Below, piece by piece: positions 49,471 through 58,918 of a DNA stretch of 64,000 bases. This DNA comes from an uncultured Haliea sp. (lineage in GTDB: Bacteria > Pseudomonadota > Gammaproteobacteria > Pseudomonadales > Halieaceae). The notes beneath the pieces are model-generated. The model did not search any database and was not told the origin of the DNA. It saw nothing but the letters and a program-made list of their open reading frames with translations. Within the stretch, counting starts at the first letter, position 1. Each line of letters begins with the position of its first letter. The stretch lies in NCBI GenBank assembly GCA_913061145.1, contig CAJXUQ010000008.1, forward strand, positions 81,916-145,915. The letters run 5' to 3'. Made by a program: the position numbers and the translations under genes.

Positions 49471-49729
49471 GGCTGGGTTGATCAGGGATTTGCTCGAAAA
49501 AATCAACGAGTTAGCCAATCGGGAAGCGGCGACGTCGGTGACACGGGTAACGGTCTGGCTGGGTGCCCTGAGCCATATTTCGCCGGAACATTTTGCCGAG
49601 CATTTTCGCAACGAAACTGTCGGCAGCCTGGCGGAGGGCGCTGACCTCACAGTCGAGACATCGACAGATATCCACCATCCGCAGGCCCAGGCAATTCTCT
49701 TGAGGAGTATAGACATTGCCGAGGCCTGA
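49463..49729 (+). CDS. hypA: HypA-like nickel metallochaperone lacking the zinc-binding cysteines
   Basis: An 88-residue protein started at ATG 49463, giving the family N-terminus [11 protein letters not shown] with Ni-binding His2. The core resembles HypA (VTVWLGALSHISPEHFAEHF, AEGADLTVET). Normal HypA is about 113 residues with two CxxC pairs forming a Zn site; here there is no Cys at all and the chain ends DIHHPQAQAILLRSIDIAEA. It therefore either works without Zn or represents a distinct short branch. It overlaps the protease gene by 8 nt and hypF by 14 nt. No hypB follows. Confidence 0.82.
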   Translation: MHEAGLIRDLLEKINELANREAATSVTRVTVWLGALSHISPEHFAEHFRNETVGSLAEGADLTVETSTDIHHPQAQAILLRSIDIAEA

Positions 49730-51863
49730 GTGCCGCCATATTCAGGTTACCGGCCTGGTCCAGGGGGTGGGTTTTCGGCCTTATGTTTACCGGCTGGCGC
49801 AGCAGCTGGGCCTGCAGGGTGAAGTACGCAATCGTTCGTCAGGCGTGCGTATTACGGTACAGGGTCACATGGCGGCGCTGGACCAGTTTTTGACTGAGCT
49901 TCGCCGGAATGCTCCCGGACAGCGGCAGGAGTTTTCGGTAGAGGTGGCCGCAGCAACAGCGTGCAGCGACTTTGTGATTGCGCCGAGTCAGTCTGACGCT
50001 GGTGTCGCCAGCACGCTGCTTGTGGATCAGGCAATCTGCGATGACTGTCGTCGTGAGTTTCACGATCAGAGCGATCGGCGTTATCACTATCCGTTTATCA
50101 GCTGCACGTCCTGTGGTCCGCGCTTTTCCATTTGTAGGCGGCTGCCCTGGGATCGGAACAATACCAGCTGGCGCCGGTTTTCCCTCTGCGCAGCGTGTCG
50201 ACAGGAGTACGAGTCGCCTCTGGACCGTCGCTTCCACGCTGTGGGTATTTCCTGTCCGGACTGTGGTCCGGTGTTGTTCACTGCTGACGGTCTGCAGGGC
50301 GATGCGGCATTACAGGAGGCCTGTGCTGTTCTGGAGCGCGGTGGTGTGGTTGCCGTCAAAGGTAGTGCCGGATTCCACTTGCTGGTGGATGCGCAGAATC
50401 AGGCGGCCGTTGCGGGCCTGCGCGAGCGCAAGCGACGCAGTAAACCACTCGCGGTGCTGGCTCCCACGTTCGAATGGGTGCTTGAAAATGCCCATACCGA
50501 GGCTGCAGAGCGTGCTGCCCTGAAGGGAGCTGCAGCGCCTATCGTGTTGCTCAGGGCGTATGGCGAGATGCAGGAATTATTGGCGCCTGGCCTGGGTACA
50601 CTGGGCGTCATGTTGCCCAGCAGTGGTATTCAGCTATCCATAATGCGGGAGCTGCAGCGCCCTCTGGTCGTTACGAGTGCCAATCTTTCCGGTGCGCCGC
50701 TGATTTATGAAAATGACACCGCGCTGTCTGCGTTGGCTGACATTGCCGATGCGTTCCTGTTGCACGATCTTGATCTGGTACAGGGCCTGGATGATGCCGT
50801 ACTGCGGGTCATGGCTGGCCAGTCGGTCAGTCTTCGACTTGGGCGAGGCTTGGCGCCCCAGATACACACTGTACCGGTAGCCCGCTCATCGCTGGGTTGT
50901 GGCGCGCATTTGAAGGTCAACCTCGCCATGCAAGAGAGGCATACGCTGATCGTTGGCCCGTACATCGGCGATCTTCAGGGAGCTGGCAACAGGCAGCGTT
51001 ATCTCCAGCAGAAGTCCACAATGCCCGCTTTTTTCCAGATTGATGCAGGGACTGAAGTCACTGATCTGCACCCCGATTATGGTTCTAGCGTGGAGGCGGA
51101 TGATCACGCGCTCACGGTGCCGCACCACGTAGCCCATGCCATGGCTGTTTGGCTGGAGCATCAGCCGGACCCCCCTTTTCAGGCGCTCACCTGGGACGGT
51201 GTTGGCCTGGGTCCCGACGGCACGGTCTGGGGGGGAGAGTGCCTGCAGTTTGAGGCGGGAATGGAGTGGCAGCGCCTGGGTAGCATTCGCCCGTTTCAGT
51301 TGCCAGCGGGGCACGATATCGCCCGGTTTCCAGGCAGGATCGCCAGAGTCCTGAGCGGCGAGACGTATCCCGGCAGGTCGATTGCCTGCTCAAGCATGGG
51401 CCGATTAATCGAGGGTCTCGCCGCTCTGGCCGGGCTTCGGGAGGAAAACCTGTTCGAGGCCCAGGTCGCCATGGAGTGGGAAGCGCTCGGCCACCGTGCA
51501 ACCAACGCGTCGCACATGGATTTCACCTTGGTTGGCGCTGATCTGGACTGGCGCCCGCTGTTGCCGGTGGTTGCTGACCGTAGCGTCAGTCTGTCTGCCC
51601 GTGCCCTGGGCTTTCATCAGGCATTGGCCAGAGCGGCGCTGCGCCAGTGCCGTCTGGGGCGTGGTGATAGCGTTCTGCTGTCTGGTGGGGTTTTTCAAAA
51701 TCGCCTGTTGGTAGAGCTGATGGTTGCTGGCGCCAGGGAACTTGGATTGAAGCTATTGCTGCCCGGGCGACTCCCGCCCAACGATGGAAGTATTGCCGCT
51801 GGGCAGTGTGTGGCCCTCGCCATGGGTGCAAAACAGACCGGAGTTTCTCAGCAATGTGCCTAG
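49716..51863 (+). CDS. hypF: Carbamoyltransferase HypF
   Basis: A 715-residue protein with a TTG start and AGGAG upstream. Domain order: acylphosphatase (VTGLVQGVGFRPYVYRLA); zinc-finger-like pairs CDDC-x18-CTSC-x24-CAAC-x18-CPDC, exactly as in the family; YrdC-like domain (AVKGSAGFHLLVDA); and the Kae1-like carbamoyltransferase domain (TWDGVGLGPDGTVWGGE, HHVAHAMAVW, LSGGVFQNRLL). It activates carbamoyl-phosphate and transfers the carbamoyl group to HypE, the first step in making the cyanide ligands of the NiFe site. It is slightly short of typical 750+ residues but complete. Confidence 0.96.
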   Translation: MPRPECRHIQVTGLVQGVGFRPYVYRLAQQLGLQGEVRNRSSGVRITVQGHMAALDQFLTELRRNAPGQRQEFSVEVAAATACSDFVIAPSQSDAGVASTLLVDQAICDDCRREFHDQSDRRYHYPFISCTSCGPRFSICRRLPWDRNNTSWRRFSLCAACRQEYESPLDRRFHAVGISCPDCGPVLFTADGLQGDAALQEACAVLERGGVVAVKGSAGFHLLVDAQNQAAVAGLRERKRRSKPLAVLAPTFEWVLENAHTEAAERAALKGAAAPIVLLRAYGEMQELLAPGLGTLGVMLPSSGIQLSIMRELQRPLVVTSANLSGAPLIYENDTALSALADIADAFLLHDLDLVQGLDDAVLRVMAGQSVSLRLGRGLAPQIHTVPVARSSLGCGAHLKVNLAMQERHTLIVGPYIGDLQGAGNRQRYLQQKSTMPAFFQIDAGTEVTDLHPDYGSSVEADDHALTVPHHVAHAMAVWLEHQPDPPFQALTWDGVGLGPDGTVWGGECLQFEAGMEWQRLGSIRPFQLPAGHDIARFPGRIARVLSGETYPGRSIACSSMGRLIEGLAALAGLREENLFEAQVAMEWEALGHRATNASHMDFTLVGADLDWRPLLPVVADRSVSLSARALGFHQALARAALRQCRLGRGDSVLLSGGVFQNRLLVELMVAGARELGLKLLLPGRLPPNDGSIAAGQCVALAMGAKQTGVSQQCA

Positions 51864-52102
51864 CGATACCCGGAAGAGTCATCAGCATCAGCGGCGTCGG
51901 CCTTGAGCGACAGGCCCTGGTTCGCTTCGGCGATGTTGAACGTGTCGTTAACCTGTGCCTGACGCCAGAGGCAGTAACAGACGACTACGTCATTGTGCAC
52001 GTGGGTTGCGCGATCCGGGTATTGGATCAGGAGGAGGCACAGCGCGCCTTGTCCCTGCTGCATGAGCTGGCCTCGATGGAGCGCGGTCATGCGGTTTCTT
52101 GA
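51854..52102 (+). CDS. hypC: Hydrogenase assembly chaperone HypC
   Basis: An 82-residue protein from the ATG at 51854, overlapping hypF by 10 nt; the upstream ORF-track start is not needed. The N-terminus MCLAIPGRV is diagnostic, with Cys2 carrying the Fe(CN)2CO moiety from HypD to the large subunit. It overlaps hypD by 14 nt. Confidence 0.96.
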
Positions 52103-53192
52103 GGAGTTTCGGGACCCTGTGCTGGCTGAGGCGATCGTTGCCCGAATCGCTGGCCTGGTAACTCGGCCGTGGGTCCTGATGGAGGTCTGCGGCGGTCAGA
52201 CTCACGCCATTATCCGGTATGGTATCGATCAATTGCTGCCTGATTCAGTAGAGCTGATTCACGGTCCGGGATGTCCCGTCTGTGTCACGCCAGTAGCCTG
52301 CATTGATGAGGCGCTTGAGTTGGCTCGAAGGCAAGACGTGATTTTCGCGACCTTTGCCGACATGTTGCGAGTGCCAGGCAGCGATACGGATTTACTGGCC
52401 TGCAAAGCCATGGGAGGAGACGTCCGCACGGTTTACTCACCCCTGGACGCAGTGCAGTTGGCGCGTGAGAATCCCGGGCGCGAGGTCGTTTTCTTTGCGG
52501 TTGGCTTTGAAACCACGGCACCCGTAAATGCGCTCAGCGTTGTGCAGGCCAAGGCATCCAGCGTCGACAACTTTTCCCTGTTGGTCAGTCAGGTTCGGGT
52601 ACCACCGGCTATTGAAGCAATAGCCGGCTCGCTCGGTAACCGGGTACAGGCCTTTCTTGCTGCGGGACATGTGTGTGCTGTGATGGGCTATTGGGAGTAC
52701 GAGGCGGTAGCAGCTCGTTTGGGAGTGCCTGTGGTTGTGACCGGCTTCGAACCACTGGATGTTCTCCTCGGTATTGAGGCTGCGCTGGGACAGCTTGAGC
52801 GCGGTGAGGCCCGGGTCGAAAATCAATATGCCCGCTGTGTGGACCGGGATGGGAATCGCGAGGCACAGAACTTGATGAAGCAGGTCTTTCGCGAGACCGG
52901 ACAGTCCTGGCGGGGTTTGGGCAGGCTTGAGGCCTCCGGACTCCAGCTGCAGGGTCGTTACGCCAGCTACGATGCCAGGGAAAAATTCGCCTTGAGTGGC
53001 GTACCGTCCAGGGAGTCAGGTGAGTGCCTCGCCGGAGACGTCCTCACTGGACGCATCCGCCCCTATGAGTGTCCACGTTTCGGCAGGGAATGCACCCCGG
53101 ATTCCCCACTGGGAGCTACCATGGTGTCCGGTGAGGGCGCTTGCGCGGCGTACTATCGCTACCGCCGAAATGCAGGAGCACACCGTGCCTGA
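52089..53192 (+). CDS. hypD: Hydrogenase formation protein HypD
   Basis: A 367-residue scaffold from the ATG at 52089 ([10 protein letters not shown]). Conserved stretches include [11 protein letters not shown] with the iron-binding Cys, [22 protein letters not shown] and a C-terminal Cys set ([12 protein letters not shown]) that binds a [4Fe-4S] cluster. It assembles the Fe(CN)2CO unit with HypC and HypE. The longer ORF start lies inside hypC. It overlaps hypE by 8 nt. Confidence 0.96.
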
Positions 53193-54195
53193 GTGTCGTT
53201 TCCCCTTCACCAGATATCCCGTCGTTACGCTTGCTCATGGTGCTGGTGGTCGTTTCACCCAGCAACTGATACGGGATATTTTCTCTGCGGCCATGACCGA
53301 TGTGCAGGCGGATCAGGATGGCGCTGATCTCGTATTTCAGGACCCGCCCGACAGTCGCCTGGTGTTCACCACGGATTCCTACGTCGTCAGCCCGCTGGTG
53401 TTTCCAGGTGGGGATATTGGCAAGCTTTCGGTGATCGGCACCTGCAACGATCTCGCCGTGTGTGGCGCCGAGCCTGCGTATCTGAGCTGTGGCTGGATCA
53501 TCGAAGAGGGTTTTCCGACCGAGTCATTATTCGCGCTGGCACAGTCCATGGCCCTGGCTGCAGCTGACGTCGGCGCCAGAATCGTAACCGGCGATACGAA
53601 AGTGGTAGAGCGCAGTCACGGTGACGGTGTGTTCCTGAACGTGTCCGGTATCGGTGTGCGCAGGTTTTCCTGCCATCCCCGGCGTATTCAGCCCGGTGAC
53701 GTGGTGATTGTCTCCGGTGACCTGGGCCGGCACGGTGCCTGCATCCTCGCCCAGCGAGAGGATTTGCAGATTCAGACGCCAATAGAAAGTGACTGTGCCC
53801 ACCTGTGGCCTGCCGTCGCGCGTTTATCGCCTTTGGCTGAGTCTGTTCACTGTATCCGCGATCTCACTCGCGGTGGCCTGGCTACGGTTTTGGCGGAGCT
53901 CAGTGAAACGGCTTCCCTGCAGATAACCATCGAACGCGACCGGGTGCCCGTCAGCAAGAAAGTGGCTTCGGTCTGCGAATTGTTCGGTATGGATCCTCTG
54001 TATATGGCCAATGAGGGTCGGATGGTGGTGTTTGCCGAGCCGCGGCGTGAAAAACATATTCTGGAGAGTCTGGGTGCCGGCGCCCGAACGATTGGCGTCG
54101 TGTCTGAAGGTCGCGGCGTCGTCGCCAGCAGTCATTTGGGCGGAAGCCAGATGCTGGACATGCTCAGTGGTGAGCAATTGCCGCGGATCTGCTAG
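53185..54195 (+). CDS. hypE: Hydrogenase maturation protein HypE
   Basis: About 336 residues from GTG 53185, which has AGGAG at 6-nt spacing and overlaps hypD by 8 nt; an ATG at 53170 is possible. The PurM-like ATP-binding fold is seen in [39 protein letters not shown] and [16 protein letters not shown]. The C-terminus is PRIC, with the terminal Cys that is converted to thiocyanate to donate cyanide. It is the last gene of the eleven-gene operon; I see no clear terminator in the next 200 nt. Confidence 0.96.
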
Positions 54196-54402
54196 CGCTG
54201 ATAGTCATTTGGCGTGTGTGAAATCTACGGGATCGAACGTGTTGAACTCGCCCTTGATCTCCGTTTCACGGCTTGCAGTTTCTTCGGTCTTAGTGGTTTA
54301 GGCATCAACAGTACATTCAGCGGCGGCTATCTAGGTCCTGCTGTTTCTGCTTAAACTATGCCCCGCCGACCGGCGACTCACATTTATTGCAGGAGATGGA
54401 CT

Positions 54403-55455
54403 TTGGAAGCGCAACACATTACACGACGCAAACTTATCGCCGCGGCACTCGCTGGAGCTGCAATGAGTACCGGTTTGCTTACAGTTTCCCCAGGGGCGCT
54501 GGCCGGTGTGAGCCTGAAGATGTCCAACAAGCGGGGGTTGACCAATATCAAGCGTGTCAGGTTGGGGAGTGTCGCGCTGGCCTGCCTGACTGAACGCAAA
54601 CGCCAAATTTCGGTAGGCGGCGGGTTTCGCAGTATGGGTGGGGCCTCACAGGCAACCGTGCAAACCAACCTCACTGGCTTGACGGAAGCGGACTTTCAAG
54701 CAGCGGCAGACGCGGCTTATAACGCCGTCTTCGCCGCGTTGGCTGCCAGCGGGGTAGAGGTACTGGATAACAGTGCACTGCTCGCAGCTCTCCGGGAGAG
54801 TGAGCCCCCGCAGGCCAATGGCACCGAATACTCTTTTCCTGAAGGCAACAAGCAAAGTAGCAAGGCGGTGATATACGGCGCGAGTGTGTTTGGCGGCTAC
54901 GTACCGCTTCCTGAATGGACACCTGCTTCGCCCGGTCTTGCGGGTATTGGCTCCATGGGACTGGTGATGTCGGCAAATCGCGTCGCCACCCTCTTTTCCC
55001 AGCAAGCGGGCGAGGACGGGGTGCCCATACTGGGTGTGTTGATTGGCGTAAGCCCAGTGCGTATCGAAGCAGATTTTGGGTCCGACTGGCGTGTTCCGGA
55101 TGCTTTTGGCAATGGCGGCCTGGCGCGTACGGGAACGTTGAGCACAGAAACCGGGCTCTCCTCTCATCCCCTGCTCACCAAGTTGGAGGTTTTCCCCGCG
55201 AGCGGAAAACCGGCGCAAATCAGAACAGAAGACGAAATCGGTATCCAGGGAGGCGTAGGCAGTTTGGCGGATACCACGGATGGCGTGACTCAGGCAGCAC
55301 AGGGCATTGGCAATGTCTTGTCTGCTTTTGGTGGGTCGGGTCGTCAGTCCAAGACAACCCGTTACACGCTGGAGGCCGATGTGCCTTCCTACACTGCAGG
55401 CGTGGCCGCACTCGCGAGCGATGTGACGACGGCGCTGGCGGGTGGCTTGTCCTGA
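54403..55455 (+). CDS. Exported protein of unknown function with a Tat-like signal
   Basis: About 350 residues from a TTG at 54403 with AGGAG 7 nt upstream; the ORF-track ATG has no SD. The N-terminus is HITRRKLIAAALAGAAMS, a twin-arginine-like signal with cleavage near ALAG. The mature part is rich in Gly, Ala and Thr with a segment ADFQAAADAAYNAVFAALAASGVEVLD that looks like an alpha/beta unit. I do not recognise the family. It starts 207 nt after hypE in the same direction and may or may not be co-expressed. The short C-terminal Gly-Ala tail is notable. Confidence 0.8.
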   Translation: MEAQHITRRKLIAAALAGAAMSTGLLTVSPGALAGVSLKMSNKRGLTNIKRVRLGSVALACLTERKRQISVGGGFRSMGGASQATVQTNLTGLTEADFQAAADAAYNAVFAALAASGVEVLDNSALLAALRESEPPQANGTEYSFPEGNKQSSKAVIYGASVFGGYVPLPEWTPASPGLAGIGSMGLVMSANRVATLFSQQAGEDGVPILGVLIGVSPVRIEADFGSDWRVPDAFGNGGLARTGTLSTETGLSSHPLLTKLEVFPASGKPAQIRTEDEIGIQGGVGSLADTTDGVTQAAQGIGNVLSAFGGSGRQSKTTRYTLEADVPSYTAGVAALASDVTTALAGGLS

Positions 55456-56364: not shown

Positions 56365-57138
56365 TCAGCTGGCGTCATCCTTGAGCGTGGCTTCGCGCGT
56401 GCTGACAATTGCCATGGTAATCAGGCCCGTAGGTACCGCGAACACGCCAAGCCCGATCATAAGGGTAAAAAAGGTGAATATCTTGCCGCCCACGGTGACA
56501 GGGTACACATCGCCATAACCCACGGTCGTGAGGGTGGCCAGTGCCCACCAGAAAGAATGGAACACGGACGCGAAGGTTTCGGGCTGTGCGTCGCGCTCGA
56601 AGAAATAAATTCCCACAGCGGCGAGATAAAACACAAACAGCGCGCCAATGCCAAATACGGCGAGGTCAACGCGCACAAGGCGAAAGGCATCGCCAATGCG
56701 CTTGGCGGCATCGACGTAGCGAACGAGCTTGAATAAACGGAACAGCCGAAACAACCAGAGAATGCGCAAGCTGCGCAAATCCAGCCCGAGCTGCAGATAA
56801 AATGGCAGAATCACCAGCAAATCGATAAGGCCATAAAAACTGAAGATGAATGCCAGACGTCTTTCGCTAAGCCAGAGACGCAACAGATATTCGATGGTGA
56901 ATACGGTTATCACGAACACTTCAAACCTGCGCAGGTTGGTGCGTACCTCCTGCGGCAGGTCGGGCAGGGTCTCCACGGTAAACGCCACAATAGAGAGCAC
57001 AATCAGGGCTTGAATCAATATTTGGCAAATTCGCCCGAAGAGCGTTTTATTACCGGAAAAAACTGTCTGCAGCCGCCTCCGCAGGCTGGTTTTCTCTGCC
57101 GTCAACTCTTCCTCCTCCTGTGAATCACCCTCGTGCAT
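56365..57138 (-). CDS. Voltage-gated-type potassium channel
   Basis: A 257-residue six-transmembrane channel. S4 is clear with regularly spaced Arg (RSLRILWLFRLFRLFKLVRY), the pore helix precedes the selectivity filter TTVGYGD, and S6 ends near VSTREA. It lacks a C-terminal RCK or cNMP domain, so gating is by voltage or through partners. The acidic N-terminus (GDSQEEEELTAE) is cytoplasmic. Its ATG shares one base with the stop of the upstream 543-residue gene (TGATG), so the two are translationally coupled and probably work together. Confidence 0.95.
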   Translation of the reverse strand: MHEGDSQEEEELTAEKTSLRRRLQTVFSGNKTLFGRICQILIQALIVLSIVAFTVETLPDLPQEVRTNLRRFEVFVITVFTIEYLLRLWLSERRLAFIFSFYGLIDLLVILPFYLQLGLDLRSLRILWLFRLFRLFKLVRYVDAAKRIGDAFRLVRVDLAVFGIGALFVFYLAAVGIYFFERDAQPETFASVFHSFWWALATLTTVGYGDVYPVTVGGKIFTFFTLMIGLGVFAVPTGLITMAIVSTREATLKDDAS

Positions 57139-58769
57139 CAGCCGGGATAGTCAAAGCGCTGCACGGCGGATTGCTCGCCACTTTTGTAGGTCAGTTGCAC
57201 GGTCACATAGTCTGTACTGCGCGGCACGATGATATACATAGGCGTCTTGGCGTCGATGGGTGCCATCCCAGCCTTGTTCCAGGGCTTGAAGCGAAAGTTC
57301 TTGTTTGGCTGAGCACTGTTTAATCCGTACTGTATATTCCTGATACTGCCGCGGTAGCTCATCAGGTGCGTGAAGTACAGCAGGCGCTTGCCCTCGTAAT
57401 CCCGAAAACTCACCCAACTTGTTGTGGTCGATTCCAGAATTCGCTGGTTTGCGTCTTCGCTTTGCTGCTTGCCCTTGAACTCAAAGCTATAAGGCCCCTG
57501 CACAATGCCTTTGATATCGCGGTAGCGGATTTCAAGGCGTGTATCACGCTGGCTGGCAGGAAGGGTGAAAAACATTTGCGGCATGGGCTTGCCCGTTTGC
57601 GGGTTGATGGCACTGCTATCCCCGGTGCTGCGCGGTTCGGTGCTGCCCTGCACATTCCACAGTATTTCGAGCGCCGGCTCGGCGATGCCGACGGTGACGG
57701 TGTAACCGGAATTGTTGACGCCAAAGGACAGAGAAACAGGGTTCTCCAGAACACCTTCGCCTAAGCCGTTCAGAGCCTGAAGCCGCGCTGCCGCATCGTT
57801 GCGCCATTCTTCCACCAATGCCTGATCGATTATGTGCTTGAGCAGGCCGCCGGCTTCGTCCGCCGTCTGAAACTTCTGCAGGTAACGCTGCTCTTCGCGT
57901 TTGTCGGCTAAAGTTTGAAACCCCAGGCGGCGCGCGGAAACGTCTTCGCTGAGATGATAGTAAGCCGGTGCAAATTGCGGGTGCTGCTCTGCATAGGTTT
58001 CAAGCGCCATTACACGTTGAGGGGCTGGCAGGAGCAACAGTCGAACATAGGCCGGCATGCCGTCTTCCTTGCCCGCCATCAGAGTTGTGTAGGTTTCGCG
58101 AGCCCCCGCGGTGCCTTCCTGCACTGTCAGAAACGCCAAAAACCGGAGATGCGGATCGAGAAGCGGTAAATCACTGCGAAAATAGCTGATATACGAGCGG
58201 CGCGCGGCAGAATAATCGCCACCGAGTTCCTGCAGCCTCGCGTTGTGATAGTAGTCTTCCGGCGAGCGCGGCTTGTCGATTAACCCGCCGCTGGCGAAGT
58301 TCTCTCTCATCTCCTCCAGCGTACGGAGCACCTGAGCGGAATTATCCTCAAGGCGTGCGGCGCTTTCACGCAGGCTTTGGGTATCTTCGGCAATGCTGTC
58401 GAGTTTGGCGTCGATGATACCGAGGCTGGCCTGCAATTCAGCAACGCCGGGGATGGCTGCAGCGATAAACCCGCTTTCTTCCGCGTCCTCACCGGATTGA
58501 AAGAAAACAATCAGGCCAAATACACCGGCTGCAATGCCGCTAAAGGCCACGCTGCCCAGAAGCTCTTCATTGCCACGACGATACAGAATGAACAGAAGCA
58601 CGAAGGCAAGTATGGCAATAGCGAACATATAGAATGCGAATGGCGCTATTGGCTGCAGGACATCAGCGATGAGACCGCCGATGGTGCATGCTGAGCCAGT
58701 GATTGTGAGTGTGGTGTTGCGTAGGCTCTGGAAGACGGCACGATTAGTGAGGGACTGAAGAACAGGCAT
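57138..58769 (-). CDS. Membrane protein of unknown function coupled to the K+ channel
   Basis: A 543-residue protein I do not recognise. It has two membrane segments (about 37-62 and 70-92), an acidic coiled coil (about 108-155, LDSIAEDTQSLRESAARLEDNSAQVLRTLEE), a helical TPR-like region (about 165-330, with EDYYHNARLQELGGDYSAARRSY) and a beta-rich C-terminal domain (about 345-543) ending RFDYPG. The order suggests a membrane-anchored sensor or scaffold. Codon use looks more A/T-rich than the hydrogenase region. The stop shares a base with the channel start, so it is the first gene of a two-gene unit. Confidence 0.88.
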   Translation of the reverse strand: MPVLQSLTNRAVFQSLRNTTLTITGSACTIGGLIADVLQPIAPFAFYMFAIAILAFVLLFILYRRGNEELLGSVAFSGIAAGVFGLIVFFQSGEDAEESGFIAAAIPGVAELQASLGIIDAKLDSIAEDTQSLRESAARLEDNSAQVLRTLEEMRENFASGGLIDKPRSPEDYYHNARLQELGGDYSAARRSYISYFRSDLPLLDPHLRFLAFLTVQEGTAGARETYTTLMAGKEDGMPAYVRLLLLPAPQRVMALETYAEQHPQFAPAYYHLSEDVSARRLGFQTLADKREEQRYLQKFQTADEAGGLLKHIIDQALVEEWRNDAAARLQALNGLGEGVLENPVSLSFGVNNSGYTVTVGIAEPALEILWNVQGSTEPRSTGDSSAINPQTGKPMPQMFFTLPASQRDTRLEIRYRDIKGIVQGPYSFEFKGKQQSEDANQRILESTTTSWVSFRDYEGKRLLYFTHLMSYRGSIRNIQYGLNSAQPNKNFRFKPWNKAGMAPIDAKTPMYIIVPRSTDYVTVQLTYKSGEQSAVQRFDYPG

Positions 58770-58832
58770 AGGCGGCGGTCACGGCTTTTGTTTCAATACT
58801 ACACTGTGATATTCCGTTCGGCTATTTTGAGT

Positions 58833-58855
58833 AAAAAGGCCGCGCGGGGCCGCGC
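58833..58855 (-). terminator. Possible intrinsic terminator of the NTF2-like gene
   Basis: On the minus strand GCGCGGCCCCGCGCGGCC can fold as short GC stems and is followed by TTTTTAC. It sits about 65 nt after the NTF2-like stop. The stem is short and ambiguous, so confidence is limited. Confidence 0.4.
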
Positions 58856-58918
58856 AGAGCTACTACAAGCGGGTGGCCACTCGAATGAAAACACGTTCAT
58901 GGGCAGTCCGGTTCACGA

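Follow-up and report, generated by a model that had tools for sequence, protein, structure and literature searches.

The two genes considered here lie on the minus strand of the window, which is the whole stretch of 64,000 nucleotides that was analysed and which belongs to a Haliea-like genome (G000) whose near public relatives are Haliea salexigens, H. alexandrii, and the Halieaceae MAG UBA5085. Both open reading frames were found where the initial annotation had placed them, the upstream one encoding a multidomain membrane protein, called the partner in this text, and the downstream one encoding a K+ channel (Table 1). No description of this channel and partner pair was found in the literature.

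Table 1. Positions in the window of the partner and channel genes and of their features
Feature	Position	Strand	Description
Terminator-like hairpin with T-run	58840..58857	-	Stem of 7 pairs (6 GC), from a consensus scan only
Block 5' of the partner, AATAGCCGAACGG...GTGTAGTATTGA	58793..58826	-	Candidate promoter; four-species comparison by eye
Partner gene	57138..58769	-	543 codons and a stop codon; its five parts are given in the rows below
Membrane module	58497..58718	-	Residues 18-91; hydropathy and charge
Coiled-coil stretch	58293..58445	-	Residues 109-159; alignment A9; long helix 109-159 in low-confidence model
Helical module	57756..58289	-	Residues 161-338; alignments A4 and A8; TPR-like
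First beta domain	57462..57755	-	Residues 339-436; strands in low-confidence model; alignments A8 and A10
Second beta domain	57141..57461	-	Residues 437-543; elsewhere alone behind a signal peptide
Shine-Dalgarno-like AGGAGGAGG before the channel	57111..57119	-	Sequence and four-species comparison
Channel as longest ORF	56365-57138	-	257 codons from the first ATG
Kv-type channel	56365..57105	-	246 codons plus stop from the likely true start, TTG 57105; six membrane helices
S4 helix	56719..56775	-	R122, R125, W128, R131, R134, K137, R140 (257-residue numbering)
Selectivity filter TVGYGD	56509..56526	-	Residues 205-210; K+ filter

The identity of the downstream gene as a K+ channel is certain. 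Its product matched Ion_trans (PF00520) over residues 36-250 with an E value of 1.6e-33 and Ion_trans_2 with an E value of 8e-16, it has the six membrane segments expected of Ion_trans, and its closest solved relatives by sequence comparison with the PDB were Kv1 (Kv1.2), Kv2 (Kv2.1), and Kv4. With KvAP, Kv1, Kv2, and Kv4, all of PF00520, it has in common the S1-S6 layout, the charge-transfer centre made up of F and E in S2 and D in S3, the positive charges of S4, and the TVGYGD filter, whereas it differs from them in its very short tail after S6, the absence of a cytoplasmic domain, the W at R2, and the presence of an operon partner. When 30 channels drawn from the genus, the family, and the order were aligned, the voltage-sensor residues F80, E83, and R87 in S2 and D106 in S3 were invariant in all 30, and the S4 charges of the window channel recur at every third position in a series that is interrupted by W128. 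Because the S4 charges and the invariant S2 and S3 residues are present, the channel is of the Kv type with a full voltage sensor of its own, and it is predicted to carry a voltage-dependent K+ current. The initial annotation had stated that the channel has no gating domain. This holds for a cytoplasmic regulatory domain, as the tail past S6 is only about 15 residues long and Pfam gave no RCK- or CNBD-like domain and nothing else beyond Ion_trans and Ion_trans_2, but it does not hold for the voltage sensor, and for the same reason the idea that gating of the channel depends on a partner found no support.

The position of W128, which from the alignment with Shaker numbering we take to be R2, the second Kv gating charge, is occupied by R in 24 of the 30 channels and by W in four, and these four are the paired channels of Haliea and no others. 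The nearest unpaired relatives of the channel (G135, G015, and G018) all have R at this position. As a separate observation, the G018 channel gene (L061, 100-2568) is interrupted before the filter by an apparent IS200/IS605-type insertion with TnpA-like and TnpB-like ORFs, and an ankyrin protein is encoded upstream of the split channel.

The two genes had been described as sharing a base at the channel start. This is true of the longest ORF, whose ATG at 57138 overlaps the TGA of the partner by one base, but it is an effect of the ORF caller, as in two other Haliea loci (L005 and L006) the overlapping ATG is out of the channel frame and reaches a TGA after 11 codons, whereas a TTG start (M-T-A-E) behind AGGAGG or a GGGAGAG-like sequence is conserved in all four Haliea species that have the gene. 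From this comparison the true start of the channel is most likely the TTG, 32 nt past the stop codon of the partner. This gap of about 32 nt with its Shine-Dalgarno sequence counts for an operon, as does the terminator-like hairpin upstream of the partner. Since the hairpin separates the pair from the SnoaL-like gene that precedes it, transcription of the pair probably begins at a promoter of its own. About 34 nt 5' of the partner form a block that is for the most part conserved among the four species; a scan for a sigma-70 promoter before the partner found none, and the block does not fit one.

In the partner the order of parts runs from membrane helices through a coiled coil and a helical module to the beta domains, as judged from hydropathy, homology boundaries, and the secondary structure of an AlphaFold model built from the four Haliea sequences, which with a mean pLDDT of 41.5 and a pTM of 0.23 was too poor for a fold search and was used for secondary structure only. 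The earlier description of the protein as two-TM, coiled-coil, TPR, and beta is supported in its order and needs revision in two of its parts. The membrane module has a weak first hydrophobic segment with a D-x-x-Q/N-P-[IL] motif followed by two strong helices, and three membrane segments are more likely than two. The helical module, of about 180 residues with the invariant motifs GG, Y-x-NAR-x(2)-E, and AGARE, resembles TPR repeats but no TPR family matched the partner at E values up to 1. Searches of the partner against Pfam, NCBIfam, and PADLOC gave no usable match, those on some of its relatives being chance coiled-coil matches, and the helical and beta modules gave nothing below an E value of 0.06 against the PDB by sequence or by profile, searches that a known fold may escape. 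An internal duplication was considered for the two beta domains, but the local alignment score was no better than that of shuffled sequences (245 of 500 reached it), which gives no ground for deriving the two from a common ancestor.

Several features bear on which side of the membrane the soluble part of the partner lies. In the membrane module the loop YRRGNEE (residues 63-69), which bears the RR, connects the two strong helices and is predicted to be cytoplasmic, and an acidic stretch follows the last helix. Relatives of the modules that have no anchor (G425, G129, the caspase fusions, and the standalone forms) carry signal peptides, and in G599 and G851 a cyclase of the cytoplasmic type is followed by a single helix and then by the modules. 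Of 41 sequences, 36 have a Cys pair in the second beta domain. The four Haliea partners and the sister-genus sequence G586 have lost both Cys residues, with G at residue 474 and W at residue 497 (G474 and W497) in their place in Haliea and the same G and W in G586. The five joint losses may be one event, and the retention or loss of the two Cys residues as a pair fits a disulfide, which needs an oxidising compartment. As the charge distribution, the signal peptides of relatives, the fusions to cyclases, and the paired Cys residues all point the same way, the soluble part of the partner is probably periplasmic, and so, probably, is the coiled-coil stretch. A channel without a cytoplasmic regulatory domain might be expected to have one supplied in trans, and the partner could then be a cytoplasmic gating ring or ligand sensor comparable to RCK or CNBD domains. 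With all four of these lines of evidence placing the soluble modules in the periplasm, we consider such a role for the partner highly improbable.

The modules of the partner are found in many other settings. Similarity at the profile level extends across both the helical module and the beta domains, in the same order (alignment A8), relatives from outside the profile were recovered with E values down to 6e-136, and the identity between the partner and its relatives is 26-41% over the beta domains. By these comparisons the helical and two beta modules form an undescribed family with no entry in Pfam or NCBIfam. The full architecture of anchor, coiled coil, helical module, and beta domains is present in G635, G689, G731, and G829 with no channel nearby; the gene of the last three has a D-Ala-D-Ala carboxypeptidase-like neighbour (tested against Pfam for G689), and that of G635 lies between two GGDEF genes. 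G599 and G851 encode a class III cyclase (PF00211, as tested for G599) with one membrane helix after it and then the helical and beta modules, and in G425 the modules are preceded by a signal peptide and by an N-terminal region that is unrelated. In the proteobacterial order of G689, where 45 of 150 genomes matched the partner family, secreted caspase-like proteins (PF00656, Peptidase_C14) have either the beta part by itself or the two modules together, and secreted proteins of about 130-160 residues consist of the second beta domain alone. Among the sampled genomes of the phylum the helical module was found in 8 of 399, its own genome included, the class and phylum samples being partial, and a search of phages, plasmids, and viral contigs gave no relatives. 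Compared with the caspase-like, cyclase, and standalone secreted proteins, with which it has the helical module and the two beta domains in common, the Haliea partner has a three-helix anchor in place of the enzyme, lacks the Cys pair, and is the only one that adjoins a channel. A survey of prokaryotic caspases has reported many alphaproteobacterial caspase homologues (PMC3501461), and the available part of that survey does not describe the C-terminal helical and beta module. Coupling to such varied outputs from one bacterium to another suggests that the module is a general periplasmic part for binding or sensing. The helical and two-beta module recurs at loci L079-L108, L072-L078, and L016.

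The anchor too occurs in other combinations. The membrane module recurs in 12 aligned proteins and also precedes ankyrin, MORN_2, and SH3-like regions: genome G474 has the anchor and the helical module in a protein that ends in MORN-type repeats, G352 has three anchor-bearing proteins of which at least one has ankyrin-like repeats behind the anchor, and in G634, G710, and G776 the anchor stands before a region that is SH3-like by eye. In these last three genomes the anchor gene adjoins a Lon protease-like gene. The loci in other proteobacteria where the three-helix anchor precedes ankyrin-like or SH3-like regions are L018-L020 and L135-L138.

Outside Haliea the channel and the partner were found only apart. 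At none of the 31 non-Haliea loci was there a channel near the soluble modules of the partner, in flanks that were mostly 5-9 kb per side and shorter on small contigs, and no partner was found upstream of the three nearest channel relatives, two of which have 53% identity to the channel. In the sister genus, G586 has a C-terminal domain of the partner type that is 55% identical, on a contig that starts inside the gene, and the 10 kb downstream of it contained no channel. The proposal that channel and partner make up a two-component system is not supported as a widespread arrangement. A partner gene that mostly occurs independently of the channel, which had been named as the observation that would count against the proposal, is what was found for the partner family and is not what was found within Haliea. 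Because near relatives of the channel and members of the partner family occur without each other, each can function alone.

Within Haliea, the partner was found in the window genome and, among seven further genomes of the genus, in three; the channel was found in exactly these four, and in all four species the genes are adjacent and in the same order, while the four remaining congeners have neither. The partner orthologues in the three further species have 95, 82, and 83% identity to that of the window. The genes that immediately flank the pair vary: in the window they are SnoaL-like and LOG-like, and L005 and L006 have others in their place. Purifying selection acts on both members of the pair, dN/dS being 0.07-0.17 in the partner and 0.04-0.16 in the channel, and between the two Haliea species pairs dS is about 0.8-1.4. 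Across the species the channel is 92-97% identical and the partner 82-95%; of the two the channel has the slower evolution, and there is no sign of tight co-evolution. The operon-like pairing in Haliea is supported by the spacing of the genes, by their retention in four species despite differing neighbours, and by their joint absence from four congeners. As the species are few and all of one genus, this joint presence and absence may be a single event, and the channel could have been inserted or retained by chance behind an unrelated gene for a periplasmic sensor or scaffold in a Haliea ancestor, with the order being inherited by the four descendants. That the pairing was seen nowhere else is in keeping with such an origin, but the divergence at synonymous sites together with the turnover of both immediate flanks left time for the genes to separate, and the absence of both from the same four congeners is not what chance neighbours would lead one to expect. 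For these reasons we consider chance adjacency rather improbable.

The explanation that we tentatively prefer is that in a part of Haliea a lineage-specific operon joins a Kv channel to a membrane-anchored periplasmic sensor or adaptor that modulates or localises it. In such an operon the partner gene upstream and the channel gene downstream would be co-transcribed, the channel would open by its own S4 voltage sensor, and the partner would be held in the inner membrane by its three N-terminal helices, with the coiled coil, which is probably oligomeric, joining this anchor to the periplasmic helical-repeat module and the two beta domains. A ligand or protein of the envelope would be the most likely binding target of the periplasmic modules, because elsewhere the family is coupled to cyclases, to caspase-like proteins, and to other anchors, and in Haliea such a module would have come under common expression with a K+ channel and would modulate or position it from the periplasmic side. 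Physical association of the two proteins, and this direction of regulation, are plausible. Another possibility is that the two genes are co-expressed and their products are not physically coupled, both serving one envelope, osmotic, or voltage-related response in which the channel works alone. This reading, with each protein acting separately, comes close in likelihood to modulation or positioning of the channel from the periplasm: closely related channels occur with no partner, members of the partner family occur with no channel, and the spacing is compatible with plain operon organisation, but the confinement of the R-to-W change in S4 to the paired channels and the strict joint presence or absence in the genus hint at a closer link.

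A stronger form of the preferred explanation, in which the partner is a dedicated periplasmic auxiliary or sensor subunit drawn from an exchangeable module and the voltage sensor of the Kv channel has been altered to suit it (R2 to W), is more doubtful. In eukaryotes, membrane-anchored subunits tune Kv channels from the outside, among them DPP6 and DPP10, the auxiliary subunits of Kv4, which are membrane-anchored and have extracellular domains. Like these and similar subunits the partner has a membrane anchor and a large extracytoplasmic domain and would act on a Kv channel from outside; the likeness is an analogy, and the association of the partner with the channel is putative. If true, a bacterial counterpart of such subunits would offer a compact system that is easy to study and would link K+ flux to sensing at the envelope. 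Finding the binding target of the module would explain several systems at once, namely the caspase-like, cyclase, anchored, and standalone forms.

Finally, some further genes around the pair were noted. In H. alexandrii and H. salexigens the channel is followed on the same strand by a gene for a 123-residue protein (L005, 10488-10859, and the same place in L006) which has a signal-peptide-like start and no Pfam match and which does not follow the channel in the window. A protein of 365 residues encoded at 54358-55455 of the window is Tat-like at its N terminus and matched nothing in Pfam; a homologue of it lies directly beside the pair in L005, in divergent orientation. At 49716-54195 of the window there are ORFs that by eye resemble the hydrogenase maturation set HypF, HypC, HypD, and HypE.
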